NCBI RefSeq assembly: GCF_026151205.1
Contig: NC_087083.1
Coordinates: forward strand, 1,674,001-1,738,000
Length of the DNA stretch: 64,000 bases
Source: Bolinopsis microptera
Lineage: Eukaryota > Ctenophora > Tentaculata > Lobata > Bolinopsidae
Reading direction: 5' to 3'
Position numbers and translations under genes: made by a program
Notes under the pieces: model-generated
Told to the model about the DNA's origin: nothing
The model's database searches: none
Seen by the model: only the letters and a program-made list of their open reading frames with translations
Shown here: piece by piece, positions 1 to 10,266 of the stretch
Layout of the letters: each line of letters begins with the position of its first letter
Numbering within the stretch: position 1 is the stretch's first letter

Positions 1-2339
1 GAAATGAAAAAAATATTAGGCTAGAAGATTGCTCCTCAAACGAAATATTGAAAATCATAAGCGAGTTCGAAAATGGTAAAGCCAGTGACATTCCCATAAG
101 TGTAGTAAAAAAGTCATCTCATGTAATCGCACCTGTATTATCGAATTACTTCAATATCCTTATGACCAAAGGTATATTTCCTGATGTCCTGAAAACTGGT
201 AAAATAACACCTGTATATAAGAAAGGTAACCCAGAAGAAATTGAGAACTACCGTCCTATCTCCACACTGTCCGTCTTCGGTAAGATCTTTGAAAAGCTCA
301 TATATTCTAGAATATACGGATTTGTTAGCTCCCAGGGAGTTATATCGAAGACGCAGTTTGGATTTAGGAAATCTCACTCTACATCTCATGCAGTCAATTA
401 CTCTGTAAATTTGATTACGAAATCTCTTAAACTTAAGAATCATGTTTTAGGAATATTCATTGACCTAAGCAAAGCTTTTGACACTATCGACCATTCAACA
501 CTTCTTATAAAACTAGAGGGATGTGGAGTGAGAGGAGTTGCAAATAACCTCATTAAAAGCTACTTGACAAACAGGCAACAATACACCGAAGTTGTAGGAG
601 AAAAATCAGATACCCTATCTATTCAATTTGGTGTCCCACAGGGTTCAATTCTTGGACCTCTCCTATTTCTTCTTTATATGAACGACATCACAAACAGTTC
701 TAAACTAGGATCATTTGTTACCTTTGCTGATGATACCAATATATTTGTTGTCGGAAAAACAAAACGTGAGGCATATGAACGAGGAAATGAGCTTTTGTCA
801 TCATTAAAGTCTTATATGAGAGCGAATAAGTTACATATAAACATGTCTAAGTGCTGCTACATACACTTCAAACCCACCATGGCAGGTTCTAAGTTAGAGA
901 CTTTATCACACCCTGAAGTTGTATTAACTATAGACAACTTTCCAATCAAAAAGGTTTCATCCGCAAAATTTCTGGGTGTTATAATTGACGAGAACCTATC
1001 ATGGGAAGATCACATCAAAGCACTTAAGCGAACTCTAAATCATTCCACATCCACTTTATGTAGACTTCGCTGCTCCCTTCCAGAATTTCTACACCAACAA
1101 TTATATTATACTCTGTTCGAATCACATCTTTCCTACTGTATATCTGTATGGGGTGGGGCAGCGAAACAACGTATAAGCTCATTATTTACTGCTCAGAAGT
1201 ACTGTCTCAGAGTACTATTTGGTGACAGGCTGGCGTACCTTGATAAGTTTAAGACTTGTGCACGTACTAGGCCTATAGGACACCAGAAACTTGACCAAAA
1301 ATTTTTCATAAAAGAGCACACCAAACCGATATTTAAGCATAATAATATTCTAGCTATACAAAATCTCTATACATACCACAGTTACCTCGAGCTCTACAAG
1401 ATAATGAAATTCCGTGCTCCAATATCCTTACATGAAGGTTACACGTGTTCCTCGAGGAAACCCTGCCTTCTAATCTGTCAGGCAGACCCACCTGACAATC
1501 ACAACACTAGATCAACCAAAATTTTTAACATTTTAACCCCAAAATTCAGAATGACTGACTTTACTACTAGTGTAATGTGCTTGCGAGGTAAGCTAAAACG
1601 TGCGCTATTAACGAATCAACATAATCACGCCCTGCTTGATTGGACTGTCAAAGATTTTGACTGCGCAAATCTTATTTCCCAAACATTATAACTGGCTGGT
1701 CACACACATCTCAATTAAAATTACCCTAGGCTACTGTTTTCCAAGTCTTGTCCTGTGAGTAAAGTATGTGTGAGAAAGTTTTAATAAAATTATTGTATAT
1801 TTACTTTTGAATTTTAAAAATCTAATTTGAGAATGAAGTTTAAAGAAATTTTAATTAGCACTGTATAGTTTAAGATATTTATAGCTTATTATAACCATTG
1901 ATACAAAGGCCATAATCTTTCGCCAGCTCTCCAATATCCACCTTGAAAGCTTGAAGCTGCATTTTATATCCTTGAACTACACAATATAAACCAAAGAATG
2001 TTTTAGTGTAGACTTTTTGTCACAACAAGACTGCAACCTATAATAACAACTATAAACAGAACCCCTAATGTTTGCTTACAATTTTTCTTCTAGTCCTAAT
2101 CTGAGCCTTGTCTCTATAAACTTAACTGAACTAGCGTTTCGGTGTGTGCAAAAGCTTCCAGGCACGCGCATTCCTTGCCCCGTTAGTTACCTGTCCTTCC
2201 AAAACCAAACTAGCAGTCAAGGACAAAAAGTCATACACCAAATGGGCATTATATTTTATGAATTGTTTTACATCTTTTTATTCTGTAAAAATGTGCTAAA
2301 ATTAAATTTCTTGTTTCATTGAAATTTCTTGTTTCATTG
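1..2339 (+). mobile_element. CR1-like non-LTR retrotransposon, copy 1 (3' part)
   Basis: This is the 3' portion of a non-LTR retrotransposon whose 5' part lies outside the window. It has an RT open frame to 1691, a ~610-bp 3' untranslated region, and a terminal direct repeat of an 18-bp unit (2304-2321 and 2322-2339). Short tandem repeats at the 3' end instead of poly-A are typical of CR1/L2 elements. The protein is clearly related to the second element at 2384-6650 but differs at many positions, so the two are separate insertions of related subfamilies and not a recent tandem duplication. Confidence 0.85.
3..1691 (+). CDS. Reverse transcriptase, C-terminal part (CR1-like ORF2)
   Basis: The frame is open from the window edge, so no start codon is shown. 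It covers most of the RT and the C-terminal tail of a CR1-like ORF2. Visible motifs are the catalytic aspartate block GIFIDLSKAFDTIDH, the GVPQGSILGPLLFLLYMND block, and the FADDTN active-site box (FADD in place of YADD). After it come the thumb and the conserved KFLGVIIDENLSW segment. There is no frameshift or internal stop. The protein normally makes cDNA by target-primed reverse transcription in the nucleus. The endonuclease domain should lie upstream of the window. Activity cannot be judged because the 5' half is not visible. Confidence 0.9.
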   Translation, partial: NEKNIRLEDCSSNEILKIISEFENGKASDIPISVVKKSSHVIAPVLSNYFNILMTKGIFPDVLKTGKITPVYKKGNPEEIENYRPISTLSVFGKIFEKLIYSRIYGFVSSQGVISKTQFGFRKSHSTSHAVNYSVNLITKSLKLKNHVLGIFIDLSKAFDTIDHSTLLIKLEGCGVRGVANNLIKSYLTNRQQYTEVVGEKSDTLSIQFGVPQGSILGPLLFLLYMNDITNSSKLGSFVTFADDTNIFVVGKTKREAYERGNELLSSLKSYMRANKLHINMSKCCYIHFKPTMAGSKLETLSHPEVVLTIDNFPIKKVSSAKFLGVIIDENLSWEDHIKALKRTLNHSTSTLCRLRCSLPEFLHQQLYYTLFESHLSYCISVWGGAAKQRISSLFTAQKYCLRVLFGDRLAYLDKFKTCARTRPIGHQKLDQKFFIKEHTKPIFKHNNILAIQNLYTYHSYLELYKIMKFRAPISLHEGYTCSSRKPCLLICQADPPDNHNTRSTKIFNILTPKFRMTDFTTSVMCLRGKLKRALLTNQHNHALLDWTVKDFDCANLISQTL

Positions 2340-2383
2340 GTCTATAAAACTACCACTAGGTATAATAGGTCAATAAATTAAAA

Positions 2384-3241
2384 GTGGTTTATAAAACTAC
2401 CACTGTGCGAATCCCTTCTCTTCTTGCCAACTCGAAAATCGTCACGATCTCAATTGGTGCGACTAGAACTGTGCTTTTTGAATCCAAACAAGACAAAGAC
2501 CTAGATCCTATTGAGCTTGATGTGAAGTCTAACTCACTTTATACTATGACAAGGTCTTCACAAAATTGGTACCGCCACGGTGTGCCAAAATTACCTGATG
2601 ATAACCCAACAGAGGAGAGATTTTCGATCACCTTCAGATCTCTAAGCAGCCAGTCTCGACGAAGCATCGTTTTAATCGGTGATTCGAATACCAAAGATGT
2701 CAACTTTGGGGATGGTGCAGGTAAAGTTGGTCATTCCTTCCCTGGTAAACGAGTCAAGGCTGCCCGTGTCAAAGACATCGATCCACACCTGTGTGCTGGA
2801 TTCTCCAACGCTTTCCTTATGTGTGGTACCAACGATCTACGCTGTGAAAACGTAAGAAATGTCTCAGATATCCACGAGACAGTGTCAACTTTAAAGAACA
2901 AACTAACTGAAATACGTCAATTGTGTCCACTTACTAACATTTTTGTTGTACCTGTTTTACCATCAAGAATCCAAGAAATGAATAAAAATATAATGCTCTA
3001 CAACAACTTGGTACAGGAGATGATAAAGAACTGTTTTCCTAATATTTGGTTTCAGGGTATGTATGGTTTTTTAGATAACAATAAGCTATTATCGGTTAAG
3101 TTCACTAGGGGTAACGACACGATTCACTTAGGAAGTAGAGGTTTAGCTAAGTTTGTAAGCCACATGAAAAACTGTGTGTTTCTGAAGGAAAAGGTGTCTA
3201 GGGAGTCAGCACAGAGGGTTGGATCCACTGGTCCAACCTAA
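2384..3241 (+). CDS. CR1-like ORF1: AlkB-like C-terminal half plus SGNH hydrolase, 5'-truncated
   Basis: The frame opens at a GTG and no ATG precedes the first domain, so the beginning is missing. Residues 12-90 match the C-terminal half of AlkB-type 2-oxoglutarate/Fe(II) dioxygenases: a TISIGATR strand, a SLYTM turn, a histidine in NWYRHGVPK, and an arginine-rich ERFSITFR strand that would bind 2-oxoglutarate. The upstream HxD iron-binding motif is lost. Residues 95-270 form an SGNH-type esterase: IGDSNTKD (nucleophile Ser), MCGTNDLR (Asn) and DTIHLGSRG (Asp-x-x-His). Esterase domains are known in CR1 ORF1. The AlkB part is my recognition of motifs and would need a profile search. ORF1 proteins normally bind element RNA. 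Confidence 0.78.
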   Translation: MVYKTTTVRIPSLLANSKIVTISIGATRTVLFESKQDKDLDPIELDVKSNSLYTMTRSSQNWYRHGVPKLPDDNPTEERFSITFRSLSSQSRRSIVLIGDSNTKDVNFGDGAGKVGHSFPGKRVKAARVKDIDPHLCAGFSNAFLMCGTNDLRCENVRNVSDIHETVSTLKNKLTEIRQLCPLTNIFVVPVLPSRIQEMNKNIMLYNNLVQEMIKNCFPNIWFQGMYGFLDNNKLLSVKFTRGNDTIHLGSRGLAKFVSHMKNCVFLKEKVSRESAQRVGSTGPT

Positions 3242-3254
3242 CCGACACATAACT

Positions 3255-6200
3255 ATGATCATGAAATTAATTAAGGAGGTCTGTGAGCCATGCTCAAGGC
3301 CCATCAACATTGGGCAGCCCCTACTGGAATGTGAAGCCTGTCGGACAGCTATTCATACTAAATGTTTTAAAGTAGCAGGTTTCTGCCCCACCAATGGTCT
3401 ATGGGTATGTAAGGTTTGTTCACTGAACGTGATACCACGCTACAACCCCTTCTCTGGGATGATTAGTGATGGTGGTGATAAATTCTACGTAGATGAAGGT
3501 GGATGTGATGACGAAACTATTCAAAAAATTTCGAATGTTCTAGACCAATGTCAGAGCTATTCTACAACTGATCTTAATAGGGTAGTCAGGGAGCTTCAAA
3601 ACTCATGTAATCCTTCATCCACACACTCAAAATTCACATCCTACTTTGTCAACTTAGATGGTAACAAAACCAACTTCGATTGTCTTAATGTTGAACTCAA
3701 ACGGATTGAACTAAATTTCTCTGTAATTGGTATTGCTGAAACAAACACAGATGAACCTCTTAAAGAACTATACAGAATACCGCAATACAACAGTTTTTAT
3801 CAGGTCACTCAGGAGAACAAGCTGAAAGGGACTGGTGTTGCCCTGTATGTAGCAAATCACCTTAATGCAGAAGTCATAGAAAATCTTGGCTACTGCACGC
3901 CTGATATTGAATCAATCTTTGTTAAGATCACTCAATCATCCAGCAAGCTCACACTCATCTCAGGGGTCATCTATCGCCCTCCTAATGGTGACATTCATAA
4001 TTTCCTTAAGTCATTTGATCACATATGTAAACTCCTCCCTAAATCTGGTGTACGTATAATGGGGGACTTTAATGTTGACCTTCTTAAAGTGAATGGTGAT
4101 GCTGGTCATGGCAACTATACTCTTTTTGAAGAATGCTTATTTAGAAATGGTTTCGCTCCCGTTATTTCGATACCTACACATGAGAGACCAAATTGCAAAC
4201 CATCTTGTATTGACAACATCCTCACGAATGACCCTGGTAACTGTGTTCTCTCAGGTTGTATAACAGATAGAATTGGTGACCATGCTCCAACATTTGAATT
4301 CACTGACATCGAATTTGAGGTTGGTCCAAAAAGTGAAAAACATGTCCAGTACTACGACTTCAGTAATGCCAACCTTAATAAATTCCTAACCCTACTGAAC
4401 ACTGACCTCTCAAAGCTCCACACTTCTCATGAATTCTCGGATTTTACTAAATTATTTGATCGTGTACTTGATGCAACATGCAAACTTGTAAAGCCAAAAA
4501 CTACTAAACGGAATCCTATCAATAACCCCTGGATAACAGATAGTATCTCAGCAGCCGTTGAAAAAAAACATGAATTAAAAGATAACTGGATTACATCTAA
4601 AACTAAGGCAAACCCTGATGGAGACCATGTTCTCGAACAAACCTTCAAAGTATACCGAAGGATCCTCAAATCTGTAATTAACTCTGCAAAAAATACTTAC
4701 TCTTGCAACCAAATCATAGAAAATAAGCACGACCGTAAGAAGACATGGCAGATCATTAATGAACTTAGAGGGAAGTGTAAAAAGACTATAAAACCCTCAT
4801 TTATAATCGACAACAGAAAAATAACAGATAGAAGGGTTATTGCAAACGAGTTCAACAAATACTTTAACTCAATTGCCTCCACTCTAAATGAATCAATAGC
4901 TGACCTGCCTATACAGGCTTCTGAATTTTCAACATTTGAAGACTACCTCCTGCCATCCAACAATAACTCTATATTCCTATCTGACTGTTCACATACTGAG
5001 CTCATGGAAATAATTTCCAAGTTGGAAAATGGCAAATCTAGTGATATTCCGATCCGTATAATCAAAAAGTCAGCTCATTTAATCTGCCCTGTTTTAGCCC
5101 AACATTTCAACAAACTCATGATGAGCGGGGTATTTCCTGATGTTTTGAAAGTTGGTAAAGTTACTCCCATATTTAAGAAAGGAAACCAAGAGGATGTAGG
5201 AAACTACAGACCTGTCTCTACACTGCCTATATTTGGTAAGATATTTGAAAAAGTGATATACAGCCGTATCTACAGTTTCGCTCTGTCACAAAATATCCTT
5301 GATGAAAACCAATTTGGCTTCCGCAAGTCCCATTCTACTAGCCATGCTGTTAACTACTCTGTTAGGATTATTGAAGATAGCATAAAAAAACGAAACCATG
5401 TTCTAGGAATATTTATAGATTTGAGTAAAGCATTTGATACAATTGACCATAGTACACTCCTAACAAAACTAGATAGGTATGGAATAAGAGGCAATGCAAA
5501 CTGTCTTATTAAAAGCTACTTATCAAATAGAACACAGTATACAGAAGTCCTTAATGAAAAATCCGAAAACCTTATCATTAAATATGGAGTTCCACAAGGC
5601 TCTGTTTTGGGACCGCTCCTTTTTCTTCTATACATAAATGATATTGCCAATTCCTCGGATTTAGGAACCTTCATACTATTTGCTGACGACACCAACATTT
5701 TTATTGATGGAAAAACTGTAGAAGAAGCTTATGAGAAAGGCAACAAATTGCTAAGCTGTATAAAAAAGTATATGATCCTTAACAAACTTCACATCAACAT
5801 GTCAAAGTGCTGTTATATGCATTTTAAACCAAAGGCTAGTAAACCAGTAGAATTGCCAGATTCGCTTCAACTCCATATTGATGGCTTTCCAATTAAAAAA
5901 ACCAAAGCAACTAAGTTTCTTGGAGTTGTTATTGACGAACAGCTTTCCTGGGGGCCTCATATAACAGCACTTAAACGAAAGTTAAACTATGCCTCTGCCA
6001 CCTTAAATAGAATTAGGGACTCTGTACCAAAGGAACTCCATAAAGACCTCTACCACACACTATTTGAATCCCACCTCACATATTGTATCTCAGTTTGGGG
6101 TGATGCAGCACTCTTTAGGACAGCAAGTATCTGGCTGTCTCAGAAGCACTGTGTACGGGTCCTCTTTGGTGATAAAGAGGCATACCTAAACAAGTTCCTT

Positions 6201-6650
6201 ACATGTGCAAGAACAAGAGAGTTTGACAGCCAGGCACTTGACCATACATTCTTCCAACTAGAGCACTGTAAACCACTTTTCAAGCAACAAAACATCCTGG
6301 CTTTCAAAAATTTATATACATATCACACATTTATGGAAGTTTTTAAAATACTAAAACTAAGGTGCCCAGCATCACTGCAACAGCATTATCAGTCATCTTC
6401 TAGAAAGGAAACCACTATCATTTCACAACTCCCATCTAATGACTTTATATCAAGATCCACCAAAATTTGGAACACAATTGCACCTAAACTTAAGCTCTTT
6501 GACTACTCCTACAAGATTAGCCTTGCTAAAAGTCGCCTGAAAAAGGCACTTCTAAAGCTGCAACATGCTTATAATGATTCGGCATGGACCACAAGCGATT
6601 ATGACATAATGCAGCTGTCATTTGAAAACAATCCCCTTCATCAAATTTAA
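3255..6650 (+). CDS. CR1-like ORF2: PHD finger, APE-type endonuclease, reverse transcriptase
   Basis: Intact 1131-residue protein. The reading frame opens at 3219 with a TTG, but the first ATG is at 3255, 13 nt after the ORF1 stop, so termination-reinitiation is a reasonable expectation. Residues ~10-55 form a C4HC3 PHD finger (CEPC, CEAC, HTKC, CKVC). Residues ~125-365 are an endonuclease/exonuclease/phosphatase domain with IAETN, IMGDFNVDLL and IGDHAPT, which nicks target DNA. Residues ~600-880 are the RT with FIDLSKAFDTIDH, GVPQGSVLGPLLFLLYIND and FADDTNIF. No frameshift or stop is present, so this copy could supply functional enzyme in trans even though ORF1 is truncated. Confidence 0.92.
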   Translation: MIMKLIKEVCEPCSRPINIGQPLLECEACRTAIHTKCFKVAGFCPTNGLWVCKVCSLNVIPRYNPFSGMISDGGDKFYVDEGGCDDETIQKISNVLDQCQSYSTTDLNRVVRELQNSCNPSSTHSKFTSYFVNLDGNKTNFDCLNVELKRIELNFSVIGIAETNTDEPLKELYRIPQYNSFYQVTQENKLKGTGVALYVANHLNAEVIENLGYCTPDIESIFVKITQSSSKLTLISGVIYRPPNGDIHNFLKSFDHICKLLPKSGVRIMGDFNVDLLKVNGDAGHGNYTLFEECLFRNGFAPVISIPTHERPNCKPSCIDNILTNDPGNCVLSGCITDRIGDHAPTFEFTDIEFEVGPKSEKHVQYYDFSNANLNKFLTLLNTDLSKLHTSHEFSDFTKLFDRVLDATCKLVKPKTTKRNPINNPWITDSISAAVEKKHELKDNWITSKTKANPDGDHVLEQTFKVYRRILKSVINSAKNTYSCNQIIENKHDRKKTWQIINELRGKCKKTIKPSFIIDNRKITDRRVIANEFNKYFNSIASTLNESIADLPIQASEFSTFEDYLLPSNNNSIFLSDCSHTELMEIISKLENGKSSDIPIRIIKKSAHLICPVLAQHFNKLMMSGVFPDVLKVGKVTPIFKKGNQEDVGNYRPVSTLPIFGKIFEKVIYSRIYSFALSQNILDENQFGFRKSHSTSHAVNYSVRIIEDSIKKRNHVLGIFIDLSKAFDTIDHSTLLTKLDRYGIRGNANCLIKSYLSNRTQYTEVLNEKSENLIIKYGVPQGSVLGPLLFLLYINDIANSSDLGTFILFADDTNIFIDGKTVEEAYEKGNKLLSCIKKYMILNKLHINMSKCCYMHFKPKASKPVELPDSLQLHIDGFPIKKTKATKFLGVVIDEQLSWGPHITALKRKLNYASATLNRIRDSVPKELHKDLYHTLFESHLTYCISVWGDAALFRTASIWLSQKHCVRVLFGDKEAYLNKFLTCARTREFDSQALDHTFFQLEHCKPLFKQQNILAFKNLYTYHTFMEVFKILKLRCPASLQQHYQSSSRKETTIISQLPSNDFISRSTKIWNTIAPKLKLFDYSYKISLAKSRLKKALLKLQHAYNDSAWTTSDYDIMQLSFENNPLHQI

Positions 6651-7370
6651 TCCAGTGATCTCGGCCCACAGGCTCCTCCTATTAAACAATTTTGATTTTG
6701 GTAAATGTGTGCTGACTCCACCACCTATGTATTTAACCTAATATTTAGTGTATTACAGGTAGAAATTGACTTAGGTAGGTATTTTTCTCTTAGGTAGATA
6801 TTAAGAATTTGGATAATTTCTTAATTGTATGACTATTTCCATTACTGAGACGTTTTTAATATTTAATTTAGGAGGGTTTTTGGAATTTTTTTAGGACTGG
6901 TTCACAGAGTGAACAGATTCCAGATTTATATATTTTTAAACTGATATTTAATAAATGATTAAAAGAACAAATTTTAAAGTTGCCATTAGATCCAAAAATA
7001 CACCCATTATGCTCACTTAAAAACAACTCTAAATCAGTAGGCTGTCACTCTATTAATGCACCACACCGCTACCTCCACTGCACTAATAGTTAAACAATAA
7101 ATTCTACAATCCTAATTTTGTGTCGTGATGGAGACCGGTGTTCATACAAAACATTTACTAGGTTGCCGTTTGGTGTGAGCAATAGCGAACAGCACGCACA
7201 CTCCTTTGCCCCGTCAACCTATATCTAATCTATTTAAAGAGTGACAACCATACTGCACATTGAATTAGGATTCCGTTAAATATCAAATTGATTTATTGTA
7301 AACTTGTTTAATCTGTAATAAATGGCATAAAATTGAAATTTTTGTTTAACTGAAATTTTTGTTTAACTGA
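6651..7370 (+). repeat. 3' UTR and terminal tandem repeat of CR1-like copy 2
   Basis: Non-coding, AT-rich sequence ending in two copies of a 17-bp unit that starts GAAATTTTTGTTTAACT. The block from about 6870 to 7370 is repeated with few changes at 9627-9978 (with an internal gap) and 9979-10266. That recurrence defines the conserved 3' end of this family. Confidence 0.85.
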
Positions 7371-7484: not shown

Positions 7485-8427
7485 TTAGTTATCGTCGACT
7501 ATGATTGCAGTGTAAAATTTGTCATATGAATTGTCGACGGTGTAATTAGGGTCTGTTGTTATAGATGAGAGTAGCTGTTTCTTATACGAATCACTTAAGC
7601 TTTTAACATCGGGCAGATTTCGTAGATCTGTTGGAACATTATTCCAACATTTTGCCCCCAAGTATTGAAAGTTTTTATGTGATGTTGATCTATTAACATA
7701 TAGGTTGCAGCTTTCGCCGCTCCTAGTACCTCCTGATATGTAACTAAATTTGTTCATAAAGTTTGTAGGACAATTGTCATGGATGATTCTAAACATATAA
7801 TTTGACAGATGGAGTTGTCGTCTAAGATGGAGTGGTAACCATTTCATGTCTCTATAAACATTAAGGCTGCTCTCTGTTTGTGGAACGTTGAGAGCTATTT
7901 TGGCTACCTTTTTGTACAGAGTGTCAAGTTCAGCAAGTTTTGTCTTGCCAGCTCTACAATAGATCGTGTCTAAATAATCGAATTGTGGCAACATGAGTGC
8001 ATTGGCAAACATTTTCCTATATTTAATGGGTAGCAGTGCTTTGCTTCTATACATGGCACCAATTCTCTTCATGACCTTCCTAATAATATAATCTACATGG
8101 CTTTTGAAGTTTAATTTACTATCTAGAATGAGGCCAAGATATTTTGTCTCTTTGCACTCCTTGATTGTGAAAGTTACCTCATTACATTCAATGGTTAATT
8201 CATCATGTTGATCAACAGAATCAAACAATAGGAATTCAGTCTTCTTTTCATTGAGTGATAATTTATTAACACTGAGCCATTTAAAGATTGTCATAAGTTC
8301 TATTTTCATGTTTATAAATGTGCTTCTGCAGGTTTGATCAAAGAATAGTGCACCATCATCTGCAAATAGAAAGGGCTTAGATAGGTTACAGGCATAAATG
8401 ATGTCATTTATGAAGATACTAAATAAT
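7485..8427 (-). pseudogene. Reverse-transcriptase fragment of a different non-LTR element
   Basis: On the minus strand a continuous frame runs from about 8427 to a stop at 7485. Its upstream part, before the first Met at 8309, still reads IFINDI and then the catalytic FADDGALFF box. Downstream are SVNKLSLNEKKTEFLLF and TKYLGLILDSKLNFKSHV, the usual RT palm-thumb region. The element is 5'-truncated just before the FADD box, and the endonuclease and fingers are missing. Its sequence differs clearly from both CR1 copies upstream. It lies tail to tail with CR1 copy 2, about 110 bp apart. Confidence 0.85.
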
Positions 8428-8495
8428 ATTATTGATTATATATGTTTACACTAGCCTATATTATGATGGAGATATACATTATATAATTGCTCCAA

Positions 8496-9460
8496 GGCAA
8501 TTCAGTAGTGTGGCATAACACGGTTAAGGCACGGTTAACGCACGGTTAAGGCACAGTTAAGGCACGGTTAAGGCACGGTTAAGGCACGGTTAAGGCACAA
8601 GGGTTACATAAGGCACGGTTAACGCACGGTTAACGCACGGTTAAGGCACGGTTAAGGCACAAACTGCCCAAAAGCAACCATTATGGTCACTTAAGGCACG
8701 GTTAACGCACGGTTAACGCACGGTTGGGGAAATATAACATATAAACATACAAGTGGTTAACTAAGGCACGGTTAAGGCACGGCTAGGGAACAAGGGTTAC
8801 ATAAGGCACGGTTGAGACACGGTCACTTAAGGCACGGTTAATGCACAGTTAAGGCACGGTTAAGGCACAAACTGCCCAAAAGCAACCATTGTGGTCGCCT
8901 AAGGCACGGTTAACGCACGGTTGGGGAAATATAACCTAAAAACATACAAGTGGTTAACTAAGGCACATGATCTGAATGTGACGATCTGTAAATTTTACAG
9001 TGCGATTCCCGCTATGAATAAATTTTCTAATTGTAAAGCAACAGCCCTGCTTCGTTTGACCGTCCTATATTTGAAATCCTTATCTCGATTAACGATCTCT
9101 TCAAGTAACAAGGCTCTTCAAATTAAGTTAACATCTCCTAGAGCTCTGCCTTATGTAACCCTTGTTCCCTAGCCGTGCCTTAACCGTGCCTTAGTTAACC
9201 ACTTGTATGTTTATATTTCTTGTATGTTATATTTCCCCAACCGTGCGTTAACCGTGCGTTAACCGTGCCTTAAGCGACCATAATGGTTGCTTTTGGGCAG
9301 TTTGTGCCTTAACCGTGCCTTAACCGTGCGTTAACCGTGCGTTAACCGTGCCTTAAGAACCGTGCCTTATGTAACCCTTGTGCCTTAACCGTGCCTTAAC
9401 CGTGCCTTAACTGTGCCTTAACCGTGCCTTAACCGTGTTATGCCACACTACTGAATTGCC
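8496..9460. mobile_element. Foldback element with minisatellite arms and 8-bp target duplication
   Basis: A 965-bp element begins GGCAATTCAGTAGTGTGGCA and ends in its exact reverse complement. It is flanked on both sides by TGCTCCAA (8488-8495 and 9461-9468), a perfect 8-bp target-site duplication. The arms (about 470 and 310 bp) are built from a GGCACGGTTAA/GCACGGTTAAC minisatellite with matching interruptions, such as a block containing ACTGCCCAAAAGCAACCAT. The ~180-bp centre (8968-9150) is unique and codes for nothing obvious. The layout and 8-bp duplication recall sea-urchin TU and Drosophila FB foldback elements. It must be mobilised in trans. Confidence 0.85.
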
Positions 9461-9626: not shown

Positions 9627-10266
9627 TTTAATATTTGATTTAGGAGGGTTTTTTAATATTTTATAGGACTGGTTCACAGTGTGAACAGATTCCAGATTTA
9701 TATATTTTTTATCTGATATTCAATAAATGATTAAAAGAACCGATTTTAAAGTTGCCATACTGAAGCCTTTAGGTCCAAAAATATATCCATTATGCTCATT
9801 TGAAAACAACTCTAAATCAGTAGGCTGTCACTCTATTAATGCACCACACCACTACCTCCACTGCACTAATAACGTAATTAGGATTACATTAAATATCAAA
9901 TTGATTTATTGTAAACTTGTTTAATCTGTAATAAATGGCATAAAATTGAGATTTTTGTTTAACTGAAATTTTTGTTTAACTGAATAGTTATACAATAAAT
10001 TCTACAATCCTAATTTTGTATCGTGATGGAGACCGGTGTCCATACAAAACATTAACTAGGTTGCCGTTTGGTGTGAGCAATAGGGAACAGCACACACTGC
10101 ACACTCCTTTGCCCCGTCAACCTATATCTAATCTATTCAAAGAGTGACAACCACACTACTGACTACACATTGAATTAGGATTCCTTTAAATATCAAATTG
10201 ATTTATCGTAAACTTGTTTATTCTGTAATAAATGGCATAAAATTGAAATTTTTTTGTTTAACTGAA
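9627..10266 (+). mobile_element. Two truncated CR1-like 3' ends in tandem
   Basis: Both pieces match the 3' UTR of the element at 2340-7370. The first (9627-9978) contains the GGAGGG-rich start and the doubled 17-bp tail but skips an internal ~200-bp block. The second (9979-10266) starts exactly with that skipped block and ends in a single tail unit. This could be two 5'-truncated insertions, or one copy rearranged by an internal duplication. No protein is encoded. Confidence 0.75.

Follow-up and report, generated by a model that had tools for sequence, protein, structure and literature searches.

The ctenophore Bolinopsis microptera carries CR1-like non-LTR retrotransposons whose full-length ORF1, as read from sequence, comprises a PHD-like finger, a linker or coil, a complete AlkB-type Fe(II)/2-oxoglutarate (2OG) dioxygenase resembling ALKBH2 and ALKBH3, and an SGNH esterase, and is followed by an ORF2 with an APE-type endonuclease and a reverse transcriptase (RT). 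The window analysed here, 64,000 nt of contig NC_087083.1 (positions 1,674,001 to 1,738,000, forward strand), contains a truncated copy of such an element (Table 1).

A sequence-only reading of this stretch had proposed an AlkB-like domain joined to an SGNH hydrolase in ORF1 of a retroelement, from the strands TISIGATR, SLYTM, WYRHGVPK and RFSITFR ahead of the esterase motifs GDSN, GTND and DTIH. All of these lie in frame in one plus-strand ORF, and residues 21-90 of that ORF match PF13532 (2OG-FeII_Oxy_2, the AlkB family) at 41.0 bits (E=3.1e-10; cut-off 31.2 bits), which by its score is not a chance match; the profile search suggested at the time is thus significant, with the esterase following directly. 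Identity to an intact copy elsewhere in the genome (L029) spans the interval given in Table 1 and is absent before position 2418, so the window copy is 5'-truncated at about that point. The break falls inside the AlkB domain, directly after the HxD strand, and the remnant, which retains the catalytic histidine (nt 2576-2578) and both arginines, has lost HxD and cannot be an active dioxygenase, as had been recognised from the letters alone. The span first assigned to the feature (2384-3241) is right at its end and wrong at its start, since nt 2384-2417 (about 34 nt) are flanking DNA; the 16 leading codons of the open frame are likewise flanking, and the ORF1 remnant begins only after them. An APE-RT ORF2 comes next both here and in L029, in keeping with the attribution to a retroelement. 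Pfam identifies RVT_1 (E=4.6e-38) and Exo_endo_phos_2 (E=2e-5) in the window ORF2, and places its PHD-like finger below cut-off (E=0.004-0.007).

Table 1. Features of the window (positions within the 64,000-nt stretch)
Feature	Position	Strand	Remarks
Second, related element: 3' part of ORF2	3-1691	+	60% aa identity; SGNH of its ORF1 sits upstream, outside the window
18-bp tandem duplication, 3' end of upstream element	2304-2339	+	
Open frame with ORF1 remnant	2369-3241	+	290 aa; C-terminal ~274 of 692 aa; family alignment from residue 17
5'-truncated CR1-like non-LTR retrotransposon	2418-7370	+	99.5% nt identity over 4,954 nt to intact copy L029
AlkB domain, C-terminal half	2418-2644	+	PF13532 profile 121-194, E=3.1e-10; keeps H70, R84, R90; HxD strand missing
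SGNH hydrolase (esterase) domain	2657-3178	+	GDSN, GTND, DTIH; PF00657 E=1e-4, just under cut-off
ORF2, 1154-aa frame	3186-6650	+	PHD-like finger, APE-type endonuclease, RT; 56-nt overlap with ORF1
17-bp tandem duplication TGAAATTTTTGTTTAAC, 3' end of AlkB-carrying element	7334-7370	+	L029 alignment likewise stops at 7370
3' end of ORF2, another AlkB-carrying family (551-aa ORF1, L041/L048)	7485-8435	-	97.8% aa identity to L048 ORF2 residues 684-997

This copy lies between other repeats, and the window carries pieces of two AlkB-carrying families. A near-perfect 20-nt direct repeat, TGGTYTATAAAACTACCACT, occurs at 2338-2357 and again, 47 nt further on, at 2385-2404; both units fall after the upstream element has ended and before the truncation point, and may be a trace of insertion. 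A further tandem duplication of 17-18 bp lies at 9947-9984, and a minisatellite with an 11-bp unit, CACGGTTAAGG, occupies 8519-9449, in both orientations within about 1 kb.

The genome search covered 264.65 Mb on 13 large contigs, and found at least 151 PF13532 matches (a lower bound: 588 first-look candidates, 150 scored), present on all 13 contigs and nearly all within repeats. The ORF1 fragment of the window has 136 matches, about a dozen of them long and 94-100% identical, with many others at 45-50% and many at 34-37%. Intact AlkB-bearing frames of some 550-880 aa exist, among them L029 (C8:11195500-11203500), in which an open ORF1 of 692 aa overlaps an open ORF2 of 1154 aa. The longer copies predicted by the sequence-only reading, with HxD...H...R in a single ORF, are therefore real, and the full-length copies carry HxD...H...R...R. 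In the ORF1 of L029, a PHD-like finger (142-194) is followed by a coil or linker, AlkB (352-492; PF13532 E=2.1e-21) and SGNH (approximately 500-690). Truncated and flanked by other repeats, the window copy could suggest that AlkB and SGNH were joined by chance, or by an assembly error, at this one locus; matches in such number, on every large contig and in intact frames, rule this out, and we give the idea practically no credence.

The label CR1-like fits these elements by anatomy, as far as sequence allows: elements of the L029 type have an ORF1 and an ORF2 with APE endonuclease and RT, and no LTR, and they combine an ORF1 with PHD-like finger and esterase, an ORF2 with PHD-like finger, APE and RT, and a 3' tandem duplication. 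The fingers of the ORF1s are weak in Pfam (E 0.001-0.007; PHD_4 at 4e-6 in L037), with a conserved Cys/His pattern. The 3' repeat of vertebrate CR1 is 8 bp, and the 17-18 bp units here differ from it in length.

Both enzymatic domains are strongly conserved. In an alignment of 15 ORF1s (A1), with identities to L029 as low as 18%, the residues H413, D415, E417, H472, R486 and R492 (L029 numbering) are invariant, as are the esterase positions G555, N557 and H655. Across a broader set of 90 AlkB rows from all loci, which includes some duplicated loci and three cellular genes and is biased toward high-scoring, open copies, there are zero substitutions at H413, D415, H472, R486 and R492 in all covering rows (85-87), and the acid four residues after the first histidine is glutamate in 85 of 86. 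The SGNH blocks I (GDS), III (GxND) and V (DxxH) are likewise invariant in alignment A5 (G16-D17-S18, G65-x-N67 and D162-x-x-H165), and the ZfL2-1 ORF1 esterase (4c1b) is among the matches of the SGNH profile search (E=1.2e-5).

Pairwise Nei-Gojobori estimates for the AlkB domain show that it is under purifying selection, with dN/dS mostly 0.04-0.2: 0.10 for L033/L034 (Z=5.5), 0.19 for L029/L031 (Z=3.3), approximately 0.04-0.06 in a family with an ORF1 of about 843 aa (at dS ~0.9) and 0.13-0.18 between Helitron copies (at dS ~0.9-1.2). The linkers are far less constrained, with dN/dS of up to 0.66 in a Helitron-like frame. These low values indicate that AlkB has been kept as a functional protein while the elements multiplied. 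The pair L021/L022 is an exception that counts against maintained function, its AlkB dN/dS of ~0.85 being like that of a decaying copy.

What kind of AlkB is this? A profile built from 14 AlkB domains places ALKBH3 (E=4e-24) and ALKBH2 (E=2e-22) at the top of the PDB sequences, followed by ALKBH8 (9e-14) and bacterial AlkB (1e-8). The AF2 model of the L029 domain (pLDDT 84.7, pTM 0.83) predicts the double-stranded beta-helix (DSBH) fold of AlkB; Foldseek matches it to ALKBH2 (E=3e-13), and in the VIA comparison it scores Z=21.7 with ALKBH3 (rmsd 2.4 over 179 residues) and Z=21.4 with ALKBH2, against about 18 with bacterial AlkB, FTO and ALKBH5. In the alignments the acid at H+4 (HSDDE or HSDNE) is the same as in ALKBH2/3. 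Among solved relatives the element domain is thus nearest to ALKBH3 and ALKBH2, in sequence and in predicted fold. The ALKBH2 and ALKBH3 structures among the matches listed are mostly DNA complexes, several with 1meA or 3mC lesions. Likeness to ALKBH2/3 is no proof of a particular substrate; our best guess, from knowledge of the family, is one of m1A/m3C type.

Cellular versions of both enzymes are retained by the host: ALKBH2 (L001, E=4e-60 to human ALKBH2) and ALKBH3 (L003, E=1.6e-27). Grouping with the latter is a 505-aa frame (L002:553-2067, plus strand; C2:9634900-9638448) with a C-terminal AlkB (E=1.8e-28) and without SGNH, which is probably another AlkB gene of the host, the third, with a long extension at its N-terminus. 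In a tree of 47 AlkB domains, unrooted and with long branches, the cellular ALKBH2/3 sequences form a small clade (90/88) apart from most element lineages, and the family of about 843 aa is closest to it (98/93). Several deep element clades are evident, and a tree of this kind gives no count of captures. A scan of viral contigs and of bacterial and archaeal genomes with a few short patterns yielded no close relative of the domain that tblastn confirmed, and so points to no recent donor among viruses or bacteria.

Single-exon EF-hand genes, nearly identical to one another, also form long tandem arrays in the host genome, with a unit every ~0.94-1.03 kb and up to about 15 copies, at C13:11.083-11.094 Mb, C5:17.013-17.026 Mb, C1:22.000-22.007 Mb and C3:3.416-3.427 Mb. 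The two array units that were read are both photoprotein-like, one of them matching mnemiopsin 1 (E=1e-125, ~88% identity over 204 aa); berovin is another best PDB match of these proteins. Photoproteins of this kind by themselves mark the genome as that of a ctenophore, and their amplification is remarkable.

AlkB and SGNH occur together well beyond the L029 family. ORF1s carrying both, with an RT downstream, fall into six families, a count over the families with ORF2 read; the four further AlkB families L074, L076, L087 and L089 lie outside it. Besides the L029 family these comprise four with downstream APE-RT ORFs (L041/L048, L042/L049, L043/L050 and L007/L051) and one with a downstream RT ORF (L047/L052). 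Their ORF2s are only 25-30% identical to that of L029, and those of the L041, L043 and L007 families cluster at about 50% identity or more. The domain is also found in Helitron-like frames of ~2,500-3,400 aa (L044/L056, L045/L055 and L046/L053) with a PIF1-type helicase downstream of AlkB. In L044/L056 and L045/L055 the frame also contains SGNH, DUF6570 and Helitron_like_N, with SGNH N-terminal to AlkB; in the third pair the frames of AlkB (L046) and PIF1 (L053) were each read on their own, and showed no SGNH. The pairing of AlkB with SGNH thus takes at least three forms: AlkB-SGNH, AlkB-long coiled linker-SGNH and, in the Helitrons, SGNH-AlkB.

Two of the RT-linked families bear on how this pairing spreads. 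Between the 611-aa ORF1 family L043/L050 (C3) and the 646-aa family L007/L051 (C5), ORF2 together with the downstream DNA and 3' UTR is 97.7% identical at the nucleotide level over 3.47 kb, whereas the ORF1s are just 51-75% identical; third-position identity is ~0.96 in ORF2 and downstream, against 0.26-0.64 in ORF1. Near-identical ORF2s beside divergent ORF1s imply that ORF1 modules are exchanged, and the sequences are best explained by recombination that replaced the whole AlkB-SGNH ORF1. L033/L034 form a milder mosaic, with third-position identity of 0.88-0.94 at the ends and 0.54-0.66 in AlkB. Reticulate evolution of ORF1 is known in the Jockey superfamily (PMC4120745); here, it is an enzyme pair that moves.

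We think it somewhat probable, from sequence and modelled fold, that the ORF1 AlkB works on RNA or cDNA of its own element and removes m1A and m3C that block reverse transcription. In such a scheme, the ORF1 protein would bind element RNA as a ribonucleoprotein, and its AlkB domain would oxidatively strip N1-methyladenine and N3-methylcytosine from single-stranded element RNA or from the first cDNA strand. The methyl groups removed would be damage, or marks written by the host, that stop reverse transcriptases, and target-primed reverse transcription could then run through the demethylated template. The Helitron transfer intermediate is single-stranded DNA, and ALKBH3-type enzymes prefer single-stranded DNA; in the Helitron-like elements the same module might work on this exposed intermediate. 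The SGNH domain would have a role of its own, with lipids or membranes as its target, in line with what has been proposed for the esterase of ZfL2-1 ORF1, which has hydrolytic activity and binds phospholipids (PMC3905857). That methylation can matter to such a polymerase is known from the RT of the Bombyx R2 non-LTR retroelement, which is impeded by m1A and other methylations, and AlkB treatment takes m1A and m3C off RNA and raises cDNA capture (PMC12140624). Such a role of AlkB on nucleic acid of its own element gains plausibility from the ALKBH2/3-like family and from the conservation of the domain. Counting against it, the presence of ALKBH2 and ALKBH3 in the host could make an element-encoded enzyme redundant unless it acts in cis. 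More tentatively, AlkB plus SGNH may travel as a unit of two enzymes, passed on through exchange of ORF1 among several non-LTR lineages and into ctenophore Helitrons; elements with exposed single-stranded intermediates would thereby gain base demethylation in cis before reverse transcription or replication.

The main rival to repair of the element's own template is that the domain removes a mark set by the host, epigenetic or epitranscriptomic (m6A on element RNA or 6mA on element DNA), so that the element escapes silencing, with lesions playing no part. To our knowledge, m6A erasers lack the acid of the H-x-D-x-E motif, which the element domains share with ALKBH2/3; the domain is also closest to ALKBH3 and ALKBH2 and more distant from FTO and ALKBH5, in sequence and in fold. 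The PHD-like finger of ORF1 does suggest a link to chromatin, and in orchid Ty3/gypsy elements a captured AlkB has been shown to demethylate m6A in vitro (PMC9289625), a precedent that, by analogy, also counts against the m1A/m3C reading. We consider mark erasure unlikely on this balance. A substrate other than the element's own nucleic acid is more doubtful still: 2OG oxygenases are diverse in what they hydroxylate, and candidates would be RNA of the host (tRNA, for instance), one of its proteins or histones, or a lipid, with the domain working jointly with the esterase. The three ways in which AlkB and SGNH are joined hint at such joint use, but the nearest solved relatives all act on methylated nucleic acid bases. 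Finally, ORF1 proteins primarily package RNA, and an AlkB fold could conceivably grip it, which would leave the domain an RNA-binding or structural scaffold in which catalysis is irrelevant. This we hold to be very improbable, given that no covering row, even among very divergent lineages, shows a change in the complete set of Fe and 2OG ligands, while the linkers around it diverge freely.

If demethylation of the element's own template is indeed its role, this would be self-encoded template-cleaning, without a described precedent in any non-LTR element or Helitron, and a natural counterpart to the AlkB step of tRNA sequencing. With a second, catalytically intact enzyme that acts on methylated bases, some retrotransposons would have control over the chemistry of the template they copy. 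Such elements allow one to test directly whether methylated bases restrict retrotransposition in animals, and prompt the question of alkylation or methylation pressure in the germ cells of ctenophores. Exchange of ORF1 modules beside nearly identical ORF2s shows a possible route by which enzymes spread between elements.

How, then, do these elements compare with known systems? Literature on AlkB with non-LTR elements, CR1, Helitrons or ctenophores, with subscription papers and Repbase outside the scope of the search, reports no such domain. The element domain shares with the cellular m1A/m3C demethylases ALKBH2 and ALKBH3 the Pfam family, the DSBH fold (Z ~21.5) and the HxDxE...H...RxxxxxR set, but is only ~22% identical to them, exists as many divergent copies inside a retrotransposon ORF1 beside SGNH, and separates from the host ALKBH2/3 in the unrooted tree. 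Helitrons (Rep-Hel) are matched by Helitron_like_N and/or PIF1 helicase downstream of AlkB in L044/L056, L045/L055 and L046/L053, and differ in that SGNH and AlkB here stand N-terminal in a single frame of ~2,500-3,400 aa; we know of no Helitron reported with AlkB.

Closest in overall anatomy are the CR1/L2-type ORF1 proteins with an esterase (ZfL2-1 ORF1p, the 'type IV' ORF1), which share the SGNH esterase, the upstream coil and the APE-RT ORF2 (PMC3905857, PMC4120745), while the element described here has a second catalytic domain, AlkB, between coil and esterase. A 2013 study regarded ORF1 proteins with the SGNH esterase as unique because they contain an enzyme (PMC3905857), and a survey of 448 Jockey-superfamily ORF1s lists RRM, CCHC, PHD, coiled coil and esterase, the esterase in vertebrate groups only, and no AlkB (PMC4120745). 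Plant RNA viruses (Alpha- and Betaflexiviridae, Closteroviridae) are also selfish RNA genomes that encode AlkB, with repair of their own RNA as the proposed role (cited in PMC9289625); they differ in being positive-strand RNA genomes with neither RT nor SGNH. Within the partial literature searched, the nearest earlier case is the orchid Ty3/gypsy element (Phalaenopsis Gypsy_Pa_2799), likewise a retroelement with a captured AlkB-type demethylase, active on m6A in vitro (PMC9289625). That element is an LTR retrotransposon of a single plant lineage, with LTR, gag-pol and integrase and with AlkB, of m6A-demethylase type, as a separate extra ORF, whereas in B. microptera the RT partner carries an APE endonuclease and AlkB lies within ORF1 itself.
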